NCBI RefSeq assembly: GCF_022747945.1
Contig: NZ_JALDST010000001.1
Location: 4,340,001 to 4,404,000, forward strand
Source of the DNA: Micromonospora sp. R77
Lineage (GTDB): Bacteria > Actinomycetota > Actinomycetes > Mycobacteriales > Micromonosporaceae
Direction: 5' to 3'
Length of the DNA: 64,000 nt
Shown here: positions 28,849 to 36,226 of the stretch, one piece after another
How the letters are laid out: every line of letters starts with the position of its first letter
Numbering within the stretch: position 1 is the stretch's first letter
Position numbers and translations under genes: made by a program
The notes under the pieces: generated by a model
What the model was told of the DNA's origin: nothing
The model's database searches: none
What the model saw: only the letters and a program-made list of their open reading frames with translations

Positions 28849-29270
28849 GTCGTATCCGGATACGGATGCCGACCCCGAGCGGTTCAACGGTTTCCCCGAG
28901 GGTCCCGCAGCGCCGGAGGGTGCCGCGCGGGACCCTTCGGCGTACGACCGGCGGACCGGATCCGGCGGTCGGGCGGAGAGCTGGAATTCTTTCACCGTTT
29001 CGGTGCGGGGCTTTTGGGTCGATGGCGGGGCGGAATTTGCTGCTCCGAGAGGCGGGGAAGAACTGTTCAGGTGATGCCGTCACGGTCTCGTCAAAGGCTG
29101 TTGAGCTGCGGAAACGTCGGCAATTGTGCTGTCGCCGGAGGGTGTGTGCGTGATAAGAAGAAACAGCGCAGTCGATTTACGATGGCGAATGTTTATCTTC
29201 TTCGCGTACCAGCCCGCTCCCGGTGCGCTTCCGGCGTGCCTGTCGATCCCCGCAGAAAGGTAGGGGTCCG
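28849..29270 (+). promoter_or_regulatory. Long intergenic leader of the secreted-protein gene
   Basis: No gene is convincing in these 420 bases. They hold a 14-base palindrome CGTATCCGGATACG (28851-28864), a hairpin with 10-bp arms AGGGTCCCGC / GCGGGACCCT (28899-28908 / 28927-28936), a small CACCG-TTT-CGGTG hairpin, and from about 28980 a less GC-rich stretch (TTCTTTC, AATTTGC, GATAAGAAGAAAC) that probably contains the promoter. The final bases GAAAGGTAGGGG form the Shine-Dalgarno of the next gene. Nothing matches a riboswitch I know. Confidence 0.4.
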
Positions 29271-31967
29271 ATGTCCTCATCGTCCCGCCTGCGCACCTGG
29301 GCGGCACCTGCCGTCGCCGGCGCGCTCGTCCTGTCGGTGCTGTCACCGCCCGCATCCGCCTCGGCGACGCCGGCCGCCGCCGCGGCGAAGCCGGCATCCG
29401 CCGCGGCGAAACCGGCCGCCCAGACCACCTCCGCGTCGTCGCGGCCCACCGCACGGACGGCCAAGCCCGCCGCGCCGGCCGCGCCGAAGCAGCCGCGCGC
29501 CGGCCACCGCGGCACCCTGGCCGTCGTCACCTGGCAGGCACCGGCCGACCACGGCAGCGCCATCACCGGCTACGTGGTGACCCCGTACCGGGGCAAGAAG
29601 GCGGCCAAGCCGGTGTCGTTCGACGCCGAGGCCACCACGCAGACCCTGCGGCTGGCCTCCGCCAGCGGGTCGTGGACGTTCACCGTGGCCGCCCGGAACG
29701 CCGTCGGCACCGGCCCGGCCAGCCCGAGGTCCGCGCCCGCCCGACTGCTCGCGCTGCCGGCCGCGCCGACCATCATCGCGGTCAGCGCGACCAGCACCAC
29801 CGCGCTGCTGAGCTGGACCCCCGGCTCCGACGGCGGCTCGCCGGTGACCAACTGGGTGATCACCCCGTACGTCGGGGGAGTGCGGCAGGCGAGTCAGACG
29901 GTCGGACCCGCCACCACGGCGGAGATCACCGGTCTGATCTCCGGCACCACCTACCGGTTCACCGTGGCCGCCCGGACCGCGGCCGGCACCGGACCCGAGT
30001 CACCGCTGTCGTTCGCGGTGACCGCGAACGTGTCGCCGACCCTGGCGTTCGCCACCCCGCCGGCGGGTGCGGTGGGGGTGGCGTACTCGGTGGGCCTCGA
30101 CGCCACCCGCGGTGTGCCACCGTTCGTCTGGTCGATCGCCTCCGGGACGCTGCCGCCGGGGATCACGTTGAACCCCAACACCGGCGCCCTGAGCGGGCTG
30201 CCCACCACCGCCGGCGTGTACCCGTTCGTGGTGCGGGTGGTGGATGCTGCCGCGCAGCAGGGCAGCCGGCTGGTCACCCTGGAGATCCGCCAGGCGCCCA
30301 GGCTGGAGAACGCCGCCCCGCCGCTCGCCGAGGTGGGGGCGATCTATTCCGACCAGCTCACGGTGATCGGCGGCACCGCCCCGTTCAGCTGGTCGATCGC
30401 CGCCGGGACACTGCCGCCGGGACTCACGCTCGACCCGGCGACCGGGCTGCTCTCCGGACGTCCCACCGCAGCCGGGGCCTACCCGTTCACGGTGCGGGTC
30501 ACCGACGCGTTCGGCCTCACCGACACCCAGCAGTTCCGGCTGATCGTCCAGGCGGCCAGCGTGGTCACCCTGACCGTCGACAGCGCCCTGACCAACTTCG
30601 GCACGCCGAGCTCCTTCCACGTGCGGATCGGGCCCGGGGTCGCCGAAGGTAACGTCACCGCGATCGACGTGCTGCCCAACGGCACCGACCGGCCGCTCGG
30701 CACGTTCCCGGTGACGTTCAACGCCGCCGACTTCCAGATCATCCTGCCGGCGTACGGGCTCAACCGGTTCCGGGTGCAGTTCGACGCGTCCAACACCAAC
30801 GCGGTGGCCAACTCCAACACGGTCACCGTGGACATCCGGGCCGTCCCCGGCCAGGTCATCATCGGCCAGTTCGCCCAGTCCGGCACCGCGGGCGACAAGG
30901 ACCAGTTCGTGGGCCTGCGCAGCAACCTGGCGATCGACGTGCCGATCGCCGGCTTCCGAATCGAGGCCCCGGGCGGGTTCAGCCTCACCATCCCGGCCAG
31001 CGCCCGCCCGCTGCCGGCCCGGCGGGGCTACCTCGTCGCCGGCTCCGACTATTCGCTGGTCAACATCCTGCCCGACCTGGTGGTGGACGATCTCGGCCCG
31101 CCCGGTGGTGGATTCCGCCTGGTGGCACCGGACGTGCCCGGCACCGTGACGGACGCCGCCGGCTCCGCGCCCGGCTTCTACGAAGGCACCCCGTTGCCGG
31201 GGTTCAACAACCCACCACACGTCGCGCACGCCTGGGGCCGGATCCGGGAGAACGGCCAACTGGTCGACACCGGCAACACCCGCAACGACTTCCGGCTGGT
31301 CAGCGTGCTGCTCGGCCCGACCGAGGGGGTGCCGTCCGCGCTCGGCAGCCCGAGCCCTCGCAACACGCTCGGCGTCTACCAGCAGAACGACATCGCGCAG
31401 TCCACCCGGCTTGACCCGAACGTGTCCAGCGCGGCTGCGCCGAACCGGGTGGTGAGTGGCAACACCATCATCCTCCGGTTCACCGTCACCAACCGGTCGT
31501 CCACCACCCCGCTGACCCAGGCGCGGCTGCAGATCACCGCGCTGAGCCAGCTCAACGGCGCACCGAAACCCAACGGCCCCACCCCGTCGCCACACGGCAA
31601 CCTGCACGTGGTCAACCCGCCCACCACGACCAGCCCGGTCACGTTGAGCAACGGGGACGTGGTCACCGTGAACAACCTCCGGATGGACGCGCCGGCCACC
31701 GACCCACCCGGTGGTGGCCTGTTCACCACGCTGACCGTCCCGCTCGACCTCGGCGGTCTCGGCCCGGGCGTCTCCGTCCGGCTGGCCCTCTGGCTGCACA
31801 TCGACACGCCGGGACCGTTCTGGGTCGGCTGGGACGTCGACGCCCTCGGCCCCCAGGCACCCGCGCTCGCAGTGGCGATGTCCGCCAACGGCAAGGGGCA
31901 CCGGCTGAAGAAGGTCAAGCCGGCGAAGCTGCCGCCGTCCTACGTGGTCAGCGGCACCGTCCGCTGA
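29271..31967 (+). CDS. Large secreted protein with FN3, putative-Ig and lamin-tail-like domains
   Basis: An 898-residue exported protein. A Sec signal peptide (WAAPAVAGALVLSVLSPPASA) is followed by an Ala/Lys/Pro-rich linker, two fibronectin type III domains (about 75-165 and 165-255; AVVTWQAPADHGSAITGYVV and LLSWTPGSDGGSPVTNWVI), then two putative Ig repeats (about 260-355 and 355-445) that share the motif SIASGTLPPGITLNPNTGALSG versus SIAAGTLPPGLTLDPATGLLSG in part. Residues 545-680 (VIIGQFAQSGTAGDKDQFVGL and after) resemble a lamin-tail domain. The rest is beta-rich and unrecognised. No catalytic site is visible; a surface adhesin or matrix protein is the best inference. The basic C-terminus (HRLKKVKPAKLPPSY) lacks an LPxTG anchor. 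Confidence 0.82.
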   Translation: MSSSSRLRTWAAPAVAGALVLSVLSPPASASATPAAAAAKPASAAAKPAAQTTSASSRPTARTAKPAAPAAPKQPRAGHRGTLAVVTWQAPADHGSAITGYVVTPYRGKKAAKPVSFDAEATTQTLRLASASGSWTFTVAARNAVGTGPASPRSAPARLLALPAAPTIIAVSATSTTALLSWTPGSDGGSPVTNWVITPYVGGVRQASQTVGPATTAEITGLISGTTYRFTVAARTAAGTGPESPLSFAVTANVSPTLAFATPPAGAVGVAYSVGLDATRGVPPFVWSIASGTLPPGITLNPNTGALSGLPTTAGVYPFVVRVVDAAAQQGSRLVTLEIRQAPRLENAAPPLAEVGAIYSDQLTVIGGTAPFSWSIAAGTLPPGLTLDPATGLLSGRPTAAGAYPFTVRVTDAFGLTDTQQFRLIVQAASVVTLTVDSALTNFGTPSSFHVRIGPGVAEGNVTAIDVLPNGTDRPLGTFPVTFNAADFQIILPAYGLNRFRVQFDASNTNAVANSNTVTVDIRAVPGQVIIGQFAQSGTAGDKDQFVGLRSNLAIDVPIAGFRIEAPGGFSLTIPASARPLPARRGYLVAGSDYSLVNILPDLVVDDLGPPGGGFRLVAPDVPGTVTDAAGSAPGFYEGTPLPGFNNPPHVAHAWGRIRENGQLVDTGNTRNDFRLVSVLLGPTEGVPSALGSPSPRNTLGVYQQNDIAQSTRLDPNVSSAAAPNRVVSGNTIILRFTVTNRSSTTPLTQARLQITALSQLNGAPKPNGPTPSPHGNLHVVNPPTTTSPVTLSNGDVVTVNNLRMDAPATDPPGGGLFTTLTVPLDLGGLGPGVSVRLALWLHIDTPGPFWVGWDVDALGPQAPALAVAMSANGKGHRLKKVKPAKLPPSYVVSGTVR

Positions 31968-32035: not shown

Positions 32036-32866
32036 ATGACCGGACGGTTCGCCTACGGGCTGCGCGTCCACGGGCTCGACCGGGTCACCGACCTCATGCC
32101 GGCTCCACCCGGCGACGACCTGCCCGAGGTGACGATCCGCCAGCACACCGGCCCCCGCCCCGTCCCCGAGCCGCTGGACCGGTGGCGGCAGGTGCGGCTG
32201 CTCGCCGACGGACGGCACCTCGCCGTCGACCGGCGCAGCGGCACGGCGACCTTCCACGGGCCGCCGTTGACGCCCGACCTGCTCGCCCACCCCTACCTGG
32301 CGGCGCCGGCCGTCGTGGTCAACCGCTGGACGGGCCGGGAGACGTTCCACGCCGGCACCTTCGTCCGGCACGGGCGCGCCTTCGCGGTGCTCGGCTCGCG
32401 TACCGCCGGGAAGAGCAGCCTGCTCGCGGCGCTCGCCGCCCGCGACGTGCCGGTGCTCGCCGACGACGTGGCGGTGGTGCACGACGGGGGAGTCTTCGCC
32501 GGGCCGCGCTGCATCGACCTGCGCCAGCCGGTTCCCGGGTTGGCCCTGCCGGGGCGGACCGCCCGGGAGGGCAGCCGGACCCGGGTGTCTCTGCCGCCGG
32601 TCGCCACCCACGTGCCGCTGGCCGGCTGGATCTTCCTGAGCTGGGGTCCCGGGCCGGCGCTGGCCCGACTCCCCGCGGCCGACGCGTTGGGCCGGCTCGC
32701 CGCCGAGCGGTCCTGGCCGCAGTTGCCCTCCGACCCGGCGGTGCTGCTCACCCTGGCCGCGCTGCCGGCCTGGGAGCTCACCCGGCCCCGCGAGTGGGGT
32801 GCCCTCGAGGCGACCTGCCGGTTGGTGGAATCCGCCGCCGAGGCCGCCGCCGGGCAGCCGGCCTGA
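32036..32866 (+). CDS. HPr-kinase-like P-loop protein (RiPP-cluster type)
   Basis: A 276-residue protein with a P-loop at FAVLGSRTAGKSSLLAALA (GSRTAGKS, Lys126) and a following PVLADDVAVV (D143-D144), the Walker A/Walker B spacing of HPr-kinase/PEPCK-type proteins. Similar short HprK-like proteins occur in some lasso-peptide loci (for example the paeninodin type), where they phosphorylate the precursor's C-terminal Ser. The N-terminal 110 residues are a beta-rich region (VRLLADGRHLAVDRRSGTA) seen in that group. AGGAGG precedes ATG 32036. The gene faces an asparagine-synthetase-like gene and overlaps its 3' end by 89 bases; a lasso-like precursor is 1.3 kb away. The kinase role is inferred from the family, not shown. 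Confidence 0.75.
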   Translation: MTGRFAYGLRVHGLDRVTDLMPAPPGDDLPEVTIRQHTGPRPVPEPLDRWRQVRLLADGRHLAVDRRSGTATFHGPPLTPDLLAHPYLAAPAVVVNRWTGRETFHAGTFVRHGRAFAVLGSRTAGKSSLLAALAARDVPVLADDVAVVHDGGVFAGPRCIDLRQPVPGLALPGRTAREGSRTRVSLPPVATHVPLAGWIFLSWGPGPALARLPAADALGRLAAERSWPQLPSDPAVLLTLAALPAWELTRPREWGALEATCRLVESAAEAAAGQPA

Positions 32867-34046
32867 TCACCGGCCGCGGCACGTCCCGGTGGCGGTAGTC
32901 GCGCGGCGTCGACCCGTGCTGCCGCAACCACAGGTGCTGCACCAGGCCCGCGGTGCACTCCGGGATCGGCCACCGCGCCCAGGCGGCGCGCAGGGCGGCC
33001 GGATCCACCACCGACTCGTCGACGCCGCCGCCGTCCCAGCCCCGGACGAACTCGCGGGTCGGGGCGCGCAGGAAGACGTCCAGGAAGTGTGCCTTGCCCT
33101 GCCGCTGGAACAGCAGCGGCGGCAGGTGGCCGTCCGCCAGCTCGGCGAGCAGCTCACGACGGCTCACCCCACGGCGGCCACCGGCGGTGGCGGCGAGCGT
33201 CGCCACGAACCCCGGGTCGAGGAACGGATGCCGGACCAGCACGGCGTGATCCGCGCCCATCCGGTCGAACGAGGCCACGGTGAGCCGCAGGTCGCGGCGG
33301 CGCAGGTGCCAGGCCATCCGCCGGTCCAGCCGGTCCGGTTCGGCGCGCCGCTCGGCCCGGTGCCGGCGCAGCACGTCCCGCGCCGCCGCCGGCCGGAGCC
33401 AGGGGAACAGGTCGATGCCGGACGGCGCCCGGCGCAGCCGGGCCCGGAGCCGGGACGCCCGAAGACGCAGTCGACGGTACGGCGAGGCCGGCGGCGGCGG
33501 TCGCCACCCGGCGAGGATCTGGTCACCACCGACACCGGTCAGCAGCGACCCGCCGGCCGCGAGTTCGACGATCGGCAGGTGCAGGTGCGTGTTCAGCGGG
33601 TGGCACACGCCGTACCGGCGCAGGAACCGTTGCGCCACCGGTCCCACCAGGTCCAGATCGTCGGCCGCGGGCAGGATCTGCCAGCGGTCCCGCAACCGGA
33701 GCTCGTCGACGACGCGGTCCTGCCAGTCCGACTCGTCGGCCGCCGGCGCGTCGGTGAACCGCCAGGTCACCGGCACCGGAGCGGGCAGTCCGTGGCGGGC
33801 GGCGACCCGGGCCGCCACGGCGAGCACCATCGACGAGTCGAGTCCGCCGGAGAAGCTGACCAGGCACGGCGGGCGGCGCAGCGCCGGCAGCACCGCCGCT
33901 TCCAGCGCCGCCAGTGGGGACGCGGCGACCGGAGCCGGCGGCCCGGTGCGGTCCGCCGGCTCGACACCGGTCACCAGGCCGGTGGCCAACTCGTACGGCG
34001 ACGGCCACGGCGCGGCGACCCGCGTGTCGACGGTCGGGTCGGTCAT
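32778..34046 (-). CDS. Asparagine-synthetase-like enzyme, candidate RiPP cyclase
   Basis: A 422-residue ATP-pyrophosphatase of the asparagine synthetase B family. The PP-loop SGGLDS is at residues 66-71 (VSFSGGLDSSMVLAVA), and GVGGDQ (171-176) is the second signature. AsnB and lasso cyclases (C proteins) normally have an N-terminal glutaminase domain of ~200 residues starting with Cys; here only ~60 unrelated residues precede the PP-loop, so ammonia from Gln cannot be made. That fits a peptide macrolactam or ligase role in which the amine is on the substrate. GGGAG lies six bases before ATG 34046. The Arg/Pro-rich last 30 residues are antisense to the kinase-like gene. Together with the peptide at 34186-34344 it suggests a RiPP ring-forming enzyme. 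Confidence 0.8.
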   Translation of the reverse strand: MTDPTVDTRVAAPWPSPYELATGLVTGVEPADRTGPPAPVAASPLAALEAAVLPALRRPPCLVSFSGGLDSSMVLAVAARVAARHGLPAPVPVTWRFTDAPAADESDWQDRVVDELRLRDRWQILPAADDLDLVGPVAQRFLRRYGVCHPLNTHLHLPIVELAAGGSLLTGVGGDQILAGWRPPPPASPYRRLRLRASRLRARLRRAPSGIDLFPWLRPAAARDVLRRHRAERRAEPDRLDRRMAWHLRRRDLRLTVASFDRMGADHAVLVRHPFLDPGFVATLAATAGGRRGVSRRELLAELADGHLPPLLFQRQGKAHFLDVFLRAPTREFVRGWDGGGVDESVVDPAALRAAWARWPIPECTAGLVQHLWLRQHGSTPRDYRHRDVPRPVIRPAARRRPRRRIPPTGRSPRGHPTRGAG

Positions 34047-34185
34047 GTCAGCTCCCGGTGAGCCCGCGGCGGGGGACGGACGCCGACGCCGCGCGCCCGG
34101 CCGGCGCTACGCGGTCGGTGACCGCAGCACCCGCGCCGGTCCGAGCCCCCGGCGGCCCGGGCCGGCGCGGACCGTGGTCGTCGGT

Positions 34186-34344
34186 TCAGATGGACGCGCC
34201 GGTGCCACCCGTCCCGTCACCGATGGGCAGGTCGCCGCCCTGCGTCAGTTCGGCCAGGGTGCCGAGCCGGTTCAGCCGTGGCGGCTGGTAGCCCCGGGGC
34301 GGAGTCGGCTGCTCGTCGGCCCGGCGTGTTTCCTGCGTGGTCAT
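34186..34344 (-). CDS. Candidate lasso-type RiPP precursor peptide (52 aa)
   Basis: A 52-codon frame with GAAGGA eight bases before ATG 34344. The leader segment YQPPRLNRLGTLAELTQG (residues 19-36) fits the lasso leader consensus Y-x2-P-x-L-x3-G-x-F/L-x3-T-x-G exactly: Y19, P22, L24, G28, L30, T34, G36. With Thr at -2, the core would be GGDLPIGDGTGGTGASI (36-52), with Gly1 and Asp8 (D43) in the right positions for an 8-residue macrolactam. The nine-residue tail is Gly/Thr-rich without bulky plug residues, unlike most lassos. Ser51 is next to the C-terminus, a possible target of the kinase-like protein. It is transcribed toward the cyclase-like gene 140 bases on. No RRE (B1) or B2 protease gene is near. 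Confidence 0.75.
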   Translation of the reverse strand: MTTQETRRADEQPTPPRGYQPPRLNRLGTLAELTQGGDLPIGDGTGGTGASI

Positions 34345-34592
34345 GTCTCAGTCCTTCGTGCAGATCACGGTCACGGTGGAGTCACTCTGCACTGCCTATC
34401 GACCGCGGGTCCGCCGGGATACGGGCGCGCTCGGAAGATCCTCGAAGGCGTGACGCGATCCCGGTCGCCGTCGCGGTCCGGGTACGCCCCGACACGCTCC
34501 GCCGAAACCCGACCGTCGCCCTCAACCGATCGGCGTCCGTCTCCGTACCTCATCCGTCGGCGCACCGGCGCCGGCCGGGAGGAGCGTGGCGG
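34345..34592. promoter_or_regulatory. Divergent promoter region, peptide gene / serine protease gene
   Basis: Between two divergent starts. On the minus strand TAGGCA (complement of 34393-34398) could be the -10 of the peptide gene, leaving a leader of about 40 bases with Shine-Dalgarno GAAGGA. On the plus strand the protease Shine-Dalgarno GGGAGGA is at 34577-34583. No clear operator was found. Confidence 0.4.
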
Positions 34593-36155
34593 ATGGATCG
34601 CAGACGGATGACAGCCATCGGCGTACTGGTGGCGGCGGCGGGAGCGGCGGCGGCGGTGACCCTGCCGTCGTTCGCGGGGGAGAACGCGGCGCCGCGCACC
34701 GGTTCCCCCGCCGCGCGCGGTGGCGTCGCCCCGGAGCTGGTCGGTGCGCTGGCCCGGGACCTGTCGCTGACCCCCGACCAGGCGGTCGCGCGACTGAGGA
34801 CGGAACGCCGGGCCGCCGGCACGGTCGCGAAGCTCCGCACCGAACTGGGGGAGGACTACGGCGGCAGCTGGCTGAGCGCCGACGGCGCGACGCTGACCGT
34901 GGCGGTCGCCGACCCGGCCGGGGCCGCCCGGGTGACCGCCGCCGGCGCGGTGCCGAAGCAGGTGGACCGGGGCGTCCGGGAGCTGGACGCCGTCAAGAGC
35001 CGGCTCGACTCCGCCGGCCGGCAGGCCACCCCGGACATCGCCGGCTGGTACGTCGACGTCACCACCAACAGCGTGGTGGTGCTCGCCCAGCCGGGCGCGG
35101 AGCCGGCCGGCCGCCGGTTCGCCGAGGCCAGCGGGGTGCCCGCCGGGTCGGTCCGGGTGAAGACCGCCAGCGAGGCGCCCCGCCCGCTCTTCGACGTCCG
35201 GGGCGGGGACGCGTTCTTCATCAACAACGCCGGCCGCTGCTCGGTCGGCTTCCCGGTGGTCGGCGGCTTCGTCACCGCCGGGCACTGCGGCCGGCCGGGG
35301 GACCGGACCACCGGGTCGAACCGGGTCGCCCAGGGCACCTTCAAAGCCTCGTCCTTCCCGGGCGACGACTGGGCGGTCGTCGAGGTCAACGGCGACTGGA
35401 CGCCGCAGGGCGTGGTGAACGACTTCAACGGCGGCACGGTGCCGGTGAACGGCGCCACCGAGGCCCCGGTCGGTGCGTCGGTCTGCCGCTCCGGCTCCAC
35501 CACCGGCACCCACTGCGGGGTCATCCAGGCCAAGAACGCCACGGTGAACTATCCGGAGGGGACGGTCACCGGGCTCACCCGGACGAACGTCTGCGCCGAG
35601 CCGGGCGACTCCGGCGGCGCGTGGCTCTCCGGCGACCAGGCGCAGGGCGTCACCTCCGGCGGATCCGGCGACTGCACGCAGGGTGGGGTGACCTTCTTCC
35701 AGCCGGTCACCGAGATCCTCCAGCGCAACAACCTGACCCTGGTGACCGCGAACGGCCAGTCGGCCCCCTCCGCGCCGCCCGCGGATGCCACCGCACCGCC
35801 CGCCACCGCCGCGCCGAGCGGTGAACCCAGCGCCCCGCCCGCCGGTGAGGCGTGCGCCGGCCAGGTGAGCCGGACCGGTCAGGTCGCCGCCGGGCGGGCG
35901 CAGAACCAGCCGGACGGCCGCTGGTTCCGGGCGGACGCCGGCACCCAGGAGGCCTGCCTCCAGGCGTCCGACGGGGTGCGGGCGACGCTGGAGCTCCAGC
36001 GCTTCACCGGGGCCGGGTTCCACACCGTGGCCGGCGCCGACACCGCCGACGGGATGGCCCGGCTGACCGCCGACACCCCGGCCGGCGTCTACCGCTACCG
36101 GGTGGTCGGCCGGGCCGGCTCCGGTGACTACACGCTGGCGTTCTCCGCCCGCTGA
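34593..36155 (+). CDS. Secreted S1E serine protease (streptogrisin / alpha-lytic type)
   Basis: A 520-residue preproprotease. Signal peptide MTAIGVLVAAAGAAAAVTLPSFA (split here at the hydrophobic core), then a prodomain of ~140 residues of the alpha-lytic protease family (LARDLSLTPDQAVARL, GSWLSADGATLTVAV, TNSVVVLAQPG), which acts as a folding chaperone. The catalytic domain begins near residue 200: His231 in VTAGHC, Asp259 in GDDWAVV and Ser340 in GDSGGAWL. After a Pro/Ala-rich linker (~390-415) comes a C-terminal beta domain resembling pre-peptidase or carbohydrate-binding tails (GQVSRTGQVAAGRAQNQ, VVGRAGSGDYTLAFS). ATG 34593 follows GGGAGGAGC. Divergent to the RiPP-like peptide; any role in its maturation would be speculation. 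Confidence 0.93.
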   Translation: MDRRRMTAIGVLVAAAGAAAAVTLPSFAGENAAPRTGSPAARGGVAPELVGALARDLSLTPDQAVARLRTERRAAGTVAKLRTELGEDYGGSWLSADGATLTVAVADPAGAARVTAAGAVPKQVDRGVRELDAVKSRLDSAGRQATPDIAGWYVDVTTNSVVVLAQPGAEPAGRRFAEASGVPAGSVRVKTASEAPRPLFDVRGGDAFFINNAGRCSVGFPVVGGFVTAGHCGRPGDRTTGSNRVAQGTFKASSFPGDDWAVVEVNGDWTPQGVVNDFNGGTVPVNGATEAPVGASVCRSGSTTGTHCGVIQAKNATVNYPEGTVTGLTRTNVCAEPGDSGGAWLSGDQAQGVTSGGSGDCTQGGVTFFQPVTEILQRNNLTLVTANGQSAPSAPPADATAPPATAAPSGEPSAPPAGEACAGQVSRTGQVAAGRAQNQPDGRWFRADAGTQEACLQASDGVRATLELQRFTGAGFHTVAGADTADGMARLTADTPAGVYRYRVVGRAGSGDYTLAFSAR

Positions 36156-36185
36156 CCGACGCCGGCCCGTCCGGCGTCCACCGAC

Positions 36186-36226
36186 CGCGGCCCCCGTCCA
36201 CCACCGCCCGGTGGTCGGGGGCCGCG
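36186..36226. terminator. Bidirectional hairpin, protease / YbjN genes
   Basis: CGCGGCCCCCG (36186-36196) pairs with CGGGGGCCGCG (36216-36226); an inner stem ACCACCG/CGGTGGT continues it. Lies between converging genes. Confidence 0.7.

Follow-up and report, generated by a model that had tools for sequence, protein, structure and literature searches.

Gene content of the locus

The window analyzed here is a 64,000-nucleotide stretch of the genome of Micromonospora sp. R77 (hereafter G000; C1:4340001-4404000), and the subject of this work is a locus within it that carries genes for a lasso-type precursor peptide (A), an asparagine-synthetase-like enzyme (C), and an HprK-like kinase (K). A first-pass annotation of this DNA had recognized a 52-amino acid (aa) peptide with a lasso-type leader, a PP-loop enzyme, and an HprK-like protein, and all three open reading frames (ORFs) were recovered. 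The features are given below in window numbering; the full clusters mentioned are those of related genomes.

34186-34344, minus strand: A, lasso precursor, 52 aa (NF033521)
34047-34185: A-C interval, 139 bases; two ABC transporter genes lie here in full clusters
32778-34046, minus strand: C, asparagine-synthetase-like macrolactam synthetase, 422 aa (PF00733)
32778-32866: convergent overlap of the 3' ends of C and K; most full clusters have B1 (PqqD/RiPP recognition element, RRE), B2 (leader peptidase), and a nucleotidyltransferase gene (N) here
32036-32866, plus strand: K, HprK-like peptide kinase, 276 aa (weak TIGR04352 match, AlphaFold fold, and BsfK-type motif)
29223-31967, plus strand: FN3, large secreted protein with fibronectin-III and putative Ig domains, start uncertain (PF00041 and PF05345)

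A scores 27.7 bits with the NCBIfam lasso leader model NF033521 (cut-off 19; residues 19-37), which bears out the leader motif proposed earlier, and is the sole match above this cut-off in the G000 genome. The leader ends in YQPPRLNRLGTLAELTQ and shows the YxxP...L..G...T(-2) pattern of lasso precursors; the core is GGDLPIGDGTGGTGASI (17 aa). Lasso cores have their ring acid at position 7-9, and the core of A combines an N-terminal Gly with Asp8, the two residues predicted to form the ring. In addition, the core has a Ser near its C-terminus, as in paeninodin-type peptides, and this residue (Ser16) is the predicted phosphorylation site. The calculated [M+H]+ is 1426.681 for the core minus water and 1506.647 when a phosphate is added. 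In an alignment of 17 precursors, including A and a precursor-like ORF from a second locus (A2), Gly1, Gly2, and Asp8 of the core are invariant, and all sequences have a C-terminal or near-C-terminal Ser no more than two residues from the end. The YxxP...RLGTLAELT leader is nearly kept in all of them except A2, and A retains the ordinary leader with its Thr(-2) site. This alignment omits eight distinct precursor-like rows (a further one in L039 and those of L047, L049, L052, L091, L095, L101, and L103) and a few more from the later survey; the core pattern is broken in the omitted L049/L099 (no Gly2 and no Ser near the end), L095 (broken core, G230), and L101 (run-on tail). Normal leaders with odd cores also occur in otherwise complete gene sets, namely L099:9571-9678 (G190, probably M. 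humi; GTGPEESDGNDTGSDVGQP) and L145:6534 (G179, probably M. endophytica; GGGDEAFDGTGLSEESLG).

C scores 83 bits with PF00733 (cut-off 21) and contains the PP-loop SGGLDSS; SGGxDSS is invariant across 16 aligned sequences, C included. The AlphaFold2 (AF2) model of C has a predicted local distance difference test (pLDDT) score of 83.9, and its fold matches are asparagine and beta-lactam synthetases. PF00733 and this fold point to a PP-loop AsnB-like cyclase, and the specific lasso cyclase model NF033535 does not. No PDB sequence matched the C profile at an E-value of 0.01. C consists of the synthetase domain only, and its match to NF033535 begins at model position 259 of 668. Residues ~383-422 form a low-confidence tail over the 3' end of K, into which C runs for 89 bases. 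The homologs of C are likewise short (233-446 aa in the best 120 of 457 matches, compared with the 668 positions of NF033535) and appear to constitute a short-cyclase subfamily, which is present in G000 as a single copy at the window locus. The other PF00733 genes of G000 (four matches in three places) were rejected as lasso cyclases, as models for asparagine synthetase, XrtA, or N-acetylglutaminylglutamine amidotransferase outscore the lasso cyclase model. One alternative is that C is not a lasso cyclase and instead makes a different amide bond or an ester, or transfers ammonia, with the phosphorylated peptide as substrate. The absence of the N-terminal part of the lasso cyclase model, the score far under the NF033535 cut-off, and the synthetase folds nearest to C are all compatible with such an activity. 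Nevertheless, C is syntenic with B1, B2, and the precursor gene in full clusters, and the Gly1 and Asp8 invariant in 17 cores have the pattern of an 8-membered macrolactam, which makes this alternative barely credible.

The match of K to TIGR04352, an HprK-related model, is weak (21.9 bits against a cut-off of 200), and no Pfam model reaches its cut-off. Its AlphaFold model is of high confidence (mean pLDDT 92.9), and the fold search placed phosphoenolpyruvate (PEP) carboxykinases (PEPCK) at the top, where they fill nearly all of the 36 best rows, followed by HPr kinases; these two folds are related. A PDB sequence search with the K profile ranked the MnmE GTPase (E 0.002) over HPr kinase (E 0.16), and given this ambiguous ranking the HprK/PEPCK assignment is settled by the fold alone. 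K has the His, the Walker-A GKS, and the Asp pair of HprK-like kinases. The spacing of H105, G120, G125, K126, S127, D143, and D144 is that of BsfK H148, G163, G168, K169, S170, D186, and D187, such that seven of eight BsfK motif residues are present, with Thr123 replacing Gly166. K is also a single-copy gene in G000, found at the window locus.

The secreted protein FN3, which the first-pass annotation had taken as a boundary of the locus, is a regular neighbor of K within the cluster: it adjoins K at 26 of the 30 loci that have K, one of which has a fragmented K and two a partial FN3. This count leaves out a K remnant in G232.

A second locus carrying B1, B2, and an exporter

The first-pass annotation had found neither B1 nor B2 beside these genes, and indeed the sole PF13471 and PF05402 matches of the genome (E 0.001) fall outside the window. 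The window locus thus lacks the B1 and B2 expected in the same locus as a lasso precursor, and the genome as a whole has them: hidden Markov model (HMM) searches located one of each, together, at locus 2 (C1 about 255.6-259.5 kb, within stretch L003 = C1:248501-268500), 4.1 Mb from the window locus.

C1:257769-258020 (match; gene at C1:257694-258089): B2, transglutaminase-like leader peptidase (PF13471, only one in the genome)
C1:258153-258353 (match): B1, PqqD/RRE (PF05402, only one in the genome)

Locus 2 comprises genes for an ABC ATPase, A2, N (a PF14907 nucleotidyltransferase), B2, B1, and an ABC-2 permease, and neither C nor K was detected there. Both loci lie on one 7.07-Mb contig of the 7.14-Mb genome, and the assembly is 99.94% complete with 0.67% contamination; an artifact of draft assembly or contamination was rejected on these grounds. 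B1 scores 49.5 bits with PF05402, and its profile matches the lasso RREs TbiB1 (E 2.5e-10, the best match) and TfuB1 (E 5.1e-7) in the PDB. B2 scores 34 bits with PF13471, and its Cys66 and His100 are invariant in 11 aligned sequences; a PDB sequence search with the B2 profile gave one meaningless match (E 0.25). N (L003:8273-9201) has an apparent frame break near L003:8925, after about residue 215, which may be real or an assembly error.

A2 deviates at positions that are near-invariant in the other 16 aligned precursors and differs from A at eight of the 19 positions from Tyr to Gly2. It falls below the NF033521 leader cut-off, which leaves A as the only precursor over this threshold. The G204 counterpart of A2 has a shortened leader. 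Judged by these features, A2 is a decayed second precursor. The Ile(-2) of A2 alone is not decisive for decay, because Ile(-2) is usable in another lasso pathway (bsf; PMC10368454).

Distribution and conservation among Micromonosporaceae

A survey of 354 genomes of the family Micromonosporaceae identified 28 with B2, G000 included; 17 loci from named relatives were also compared. The family searches often scored only part of the first-look candidates per genome (e.g., 11 of 27), such that distant copies could be missed. The usual gene order is A, ABC ATPase, ABC permease, C, and B1 on one strand, and B2, N, K, and FN3 on the other. A, both ABC genes, C, B1, B2, N, and K occur together in one stretch of no more than 20 kb in 21 of the 28 B2-positive genomes, although a gene is in pieces in four of these (G186, G211, G244, and G271) and B1 or N-B2 comes from a neighboring remnant or cluster in two (G155 and G232). 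The remaining seven are G286, five genomes with split gene sets, and G331, whose stretch has no ABC genes and in which A directly neighbors C, as it does in the window. By gene order, the window locus is a full cluster minus five genes (both ABC genes, B1, B2, and N).

This trimmed arrangement is found in a second species. G286 has an orthologous trio (C 88%, K 86%, and A 64% identical), and its locus aligns with window positions 23688-44090 in six blocks of 74-91% identity that cover most of this region, A-C-K-FN3 included. A and C are adjacent in G286, and the stop codons of C and K abut at L086:10833/10834. A second G286 locus contains ABC permease, C, B1, B2, N, and ABC ATPase genes, with no K and no recognizable A; thus, both species encode A and K together and B1/B2 at a separate site. 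Orthologs of A, C, and K are each present in other Micromonospora clusters, which together with the orthologous G286 locus suggests that the A-C-K trio reflects more than chance. The search proposed in the first-pass annotation for this trio in related genomes therefore had a positive outcome, with conservation both in G286 and in full clusters.

K was found in 30 of 354 genomes. Twenty-seven of these copies have at least 55% identity, all in B2-positive genomes, and G230 is the only one of the 28 without K. The other three are distant (35%) and belong to other genera (G027, G031, and G349). C, searched with a 142-residue piece, occurs in 30 genomes (the 28 plus G245 and G332); G245 and G332 have no PF13471 match, no K, and no leader over the cut-off. 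B1 occurs in 32 genomes, 29 of them at 50% identity or higher (the 28 plus G245), with distant matches in G027, G042, and G349. The association of K with B2 is strong (Fisher p 1.3e-39), but these genomes are related and most have one cluster, such that the split genomes are the telling cases. The families of these genes, their intact motifs, their single copies, their co-occurrence, and the selection on them are features read from the sequences themselves.

In G027 (L175:6846-11079) and G349 (L176:6772-10998), a kinase gene is found with genes for PqqD, a PF14907-like nucleotidyltransferase, and a large ABC transporter, and no cyclase was found nearby. The G349 set adjoins exopolysaccharide genes and a candidate precursor with YTQPALETLGSLQALTKG. 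Both sets resemble the Bacillota gene set for linear polyphosphorylated peptides (LPP; PMC13381572), and the kinase/PqqD set of G027 looks like another system.

These distributions bear on the suggestion, made in the first-pass annotation, of a minimal cyclase-plus-kinase system in which the leader is handled differently. C and K would then act on A without B1/B2, and the leader would be kept or cut by another protease, such as the secreted serine protease encoded beside the locus. B1 and B2 are not local, G027 combines a distant K-like gene and PqqD with no PF13471 match, and pseudomycoidin reportedly forms in vivo without a leader or leader peptidase (from the title of work by Zyubko et al. 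in 2019); all three points agree with such autonomy. On the other hand, no K of at least 55% identity was found without B2 among the 354 genomes, the 21 full sets of the 28 B2-positive genomes hold both enzymes alongside B1 and B2, and the leader and the Thr(-2) site are conserved. Moreover, B1 speeds the kinase in the homologous bsf pathway (PMC10368454). The serine protease carries an alpha-lytic protease prodomain and hence looks secreted. It was rejected as the leader peptidase, as no match to it at E 1e-4 is listed for any of the 17 loci from named relatives and nothing in the G286 locus matches 34458-36200 over at least 200 bases. A minimal ribosomally synthesized and post-translationally modified peptide (RiPP) system without leader peptidase was rejected because B1 and B2 are in the genome and K is linked to B2 as above, and we regard autonomous action of C and K as very unlikely. 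The other option raised at that stage, that B1 and B2 are encoded elsewhere, is supported by the single B1 and B2 at locus 2 and by this link of K to B2.

Selection on the two loci

The ratios of nonsynonymous to synonymous substitution rates (dN/dS) were calculated by the Nei-Gojobori method, using G286 for the window genes and the C-less locus of G204 for the locus-2 genes. The values are 0.24 for C, 0.29 for K, and 0.41 for FN3 in the former comparison. In the latter, which for B1 and B2 contrasts two C-less locus-2 copies, they are 0.15 for B2, 0.14 for B1, 0.28 and 0.32 for the ABC genes, and 0.53 for N over its first 216 codons. These ratios indicate that C, K, B1, and B2 are under purifying selection.

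Such constraint is relevant to the possibility that both halves are relics, i.e., decaying clusters that happened to lose different genes and yield no product. The frame break in N, the decayed A2, and the long tail of C could all be signs of this process, and relatives do contain clear relics (in G245, C-B1 and the remnant of a permease; in G332, C only; and G230, with neither K nor an intact precursor). However, the reading frames of C, K, B1, and B2 are open and evolve under purifying selection, the leader and core motifs of A are intact, and the trimmed locus is conserved in G286. Furthermore, the B2-less G245 and G332 also lack K and an over-cut-off leader, both of which the window locus retains. 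We consider decay of both halves unlikely.

Split gene sets and sub-clade mismatch

C and B2 occur only at distant loci in five of the 28 genomes, and in four of these (G000, G196, G197, and G299) the whole gene set is present across the two loci. The distances between C and B2 and the partitions of the genes are as follows.

G000: 4.1 Mb; A, C, K / ABC, ABC, B1, B2, N
G196 (M. lupini): 1.9 Mb; A, ABC, ABC, C, N, K / B1, B2
G197: 2.0 Mb; same partition as G196
G299: 1.35 Mb; A, ABC, C, B1, N, K / ABC, B2
G230 (probably M. robiginosa): 3.3 Mb; C, B1, odd A / B2, N

Phylogenies were compared for C (32 rows) and B2 (30 rows). The best-supported B2 clade has 12 rows (support 100/100), and its C counterpart has nine (100/99). 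The sub-clades of C and B2 agree in 22 of 24 co-located pairs, the exceptions being the close kin G148 and G218, in which the N-B2 pair is oddly placed, and disagree in all five split genomes. The difference between split and co-located pairs has a Fisher p of 1.8e-4 (2.8e-4 with sisters collapsed), for a sub-clade that was picked after the trees were seen. This mismatch fits a history in which two clusters of different sub-clades met in one genome and lost complementary genes.

The precursors offer a weak hint that the leader of A is adapted to the remote B1. Over the same 19 positions, A has a single difference from the precursor of M. haikouensis (L055), whose genome (as G186) has a B2 of the locus-2 sub-clade, and three and four differences from the precursors L104 and L054 of its own sub-clade. 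The hint is weak because other aligned precursors of the locus-2 sub-clade differ from A at two or three positions.

Exchange at shorter range was observed as well. In G155, a cluster without its own B1 lies beside the remnant of a second cluster (L104:3049-3857; C fragments, an intact B1, and a B2 fragment), and the B1 of this genome comes from the decayed neighbor about 6 kb away. In G232, N and B2 are truncated and an intact N-B2 is adjacent.

Proposed pathway

Taken together, these findings suggest that the window probably holds one half of a split, trans-complementing lasso pathway of the paeninodin (phosphorylated) type, which arose by reciprocal loss between two co-resident clusters. 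Two lasso clusters would once have been together in the lineage, each dropping genes that the other retained. Locus 1 would have kept A, C, K, and FN3, and locus 2 would have kept B1, B2, N (apparently frameshifted), and a two-gene ABC exporter. B1 may bind the YxxPxL leader of A and present A to K and B2. K would phosphorylate the conserved Ser near the C-terminus, and B2 would cleave after Thr(-2)-Gln(-1). C would then activate Asp8 with ATP and link it to Gly1; the remaining nine residues would form the tail threaded through the resulting ring of eight, and the locus-2 exporter would remove the lasso product. The action in trans, the phosphorylation of Ser16, the threading, and the export are steps that we infer. 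Two published observations concern steps of this kind: BsfB1 (RRE) speeds the kinase BsfK and helps B2 (PMC10368454), and the actinobacterial FusB1 binds non-cognate leaders (PMC13381572).

Several observations weigh against this trans-complementing pathway. The tail of C, about 40 residues long, is readthrough-like, and C reaches 20 of 525 bits with the NCBIfam lasso cyclase model NF033535, under its cut-off. B1 reaches 49 bits of the 70-bit cut-off of the lasso PqqD model NF033530, and B2, at 31 bits, is just below the 33-bit cut-off of NF033537, the model for lasso B2. N, intact in the G204 copy, is apparently frameshifted in G000, and the dN/dS of A is not low (0.83 over 52 codons, relative to G286). 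In G230, another of the split genomes, K and a proper precursor have been lost, which implies that a split can end in decay. G027, of another genus, has a K-like gene (35%) and PqqD with no PF13471 match, which implies that K-like genes can exist without B2. Finally, the post hoc choice of the sub-clade affects the mismatch count.

A broader proposal, which we hold to be evenly balanced, is that the lasso enzymes of Micromonospora form a genome-wide interchangeable pool, in which the RRE, protease, nucleotidyltransferase, and exporter of one sub-clade mature the precursors of another in trans. Reciprocal loss would then have produced splits up to four times (G000; G196/G197; G299; and the decayed G230), in addition to short-range borrowing (G155, G232, and G148/G218). 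The genes for a lasso peptide are normally discovered, and also expressed, as a single compact cluster. If the pool exists, lasso genes can do without clustering, and genome mining confined to clusters mistakes such systems for orphan or minimal ones. In the split pathway proposed for G000, the missing leader peptidase and RRE would not be replaced by new chemistry but lie megabases away as the remains of a cluster of another sub-clade; a cluster without B1/B2 is thus not by itself a minimal or novel RiPP class. The split genomes are also natural cases in which the B1/B2 of one lineage should serve the precursor of another, making RRE and protease promiscuity testable.

Comparison with known systems

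The predicted chemistry is ordinary (lasso plus kinase), and the unusual feature is a recurring genome architecture. We found no report of split or unclustered lasso clusters in the open-license PMC literature, which is not proof of absence.

The closest likeness is to clusters of the paeninodin/pseudomycoidin type, which comprise A, C, B1, B2, an HprK-like K, N, and an ABC transporter D (PMC8498205). Once both loci are counted, G000 has the same kinds of genes; in both cases a Ser lies close to the C-terminus and the tailoring enzymes are K and N. In contrast to those clusters, the G000 genes are distributed over two loci 4.1 Mb apart, N is apparently frameshifted, C is short and lacks the N-terminal domain, and the neighbor is a large secreted Ig-fold protein. 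The leader motif is YxxP in G000, whereas WxxP is reported for Bacillota paeninodins. The bsf cluster of Bradymonas sediminis (PMC10368454) shares A, B1, B2, C, D, K, and N and the spacing of the K motif. However, bsf is clustered, has Ile(-2), and is phosphorylated at Ser3, whereas G000 is split, has Thr(-2), and has no Ser at position 3.

LPP systems share an RRE, an HprK-like kinase, a nucleoside triphosphate (NTP) transferase, and a YxxP leader with G000; they have no cyclase and use a signal-peptidase-like protease (PMC13381572). The window has C beside A, and no signal peptidase was detected among the five window and seven locus-2 proteins scanned; an LPP identity was rejected for these reasons. 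Lastly, lanthipeptides with unclustered proteases (PMC8960859) are comparable in that the leader protease is encoded away from the precursor. Compared with those lanthipeptides, G000 differs in that not just the protease but also the RRE, tailoring enzyme, and exporter are remote, and together they are the apparent remains of a second, similar cluster.

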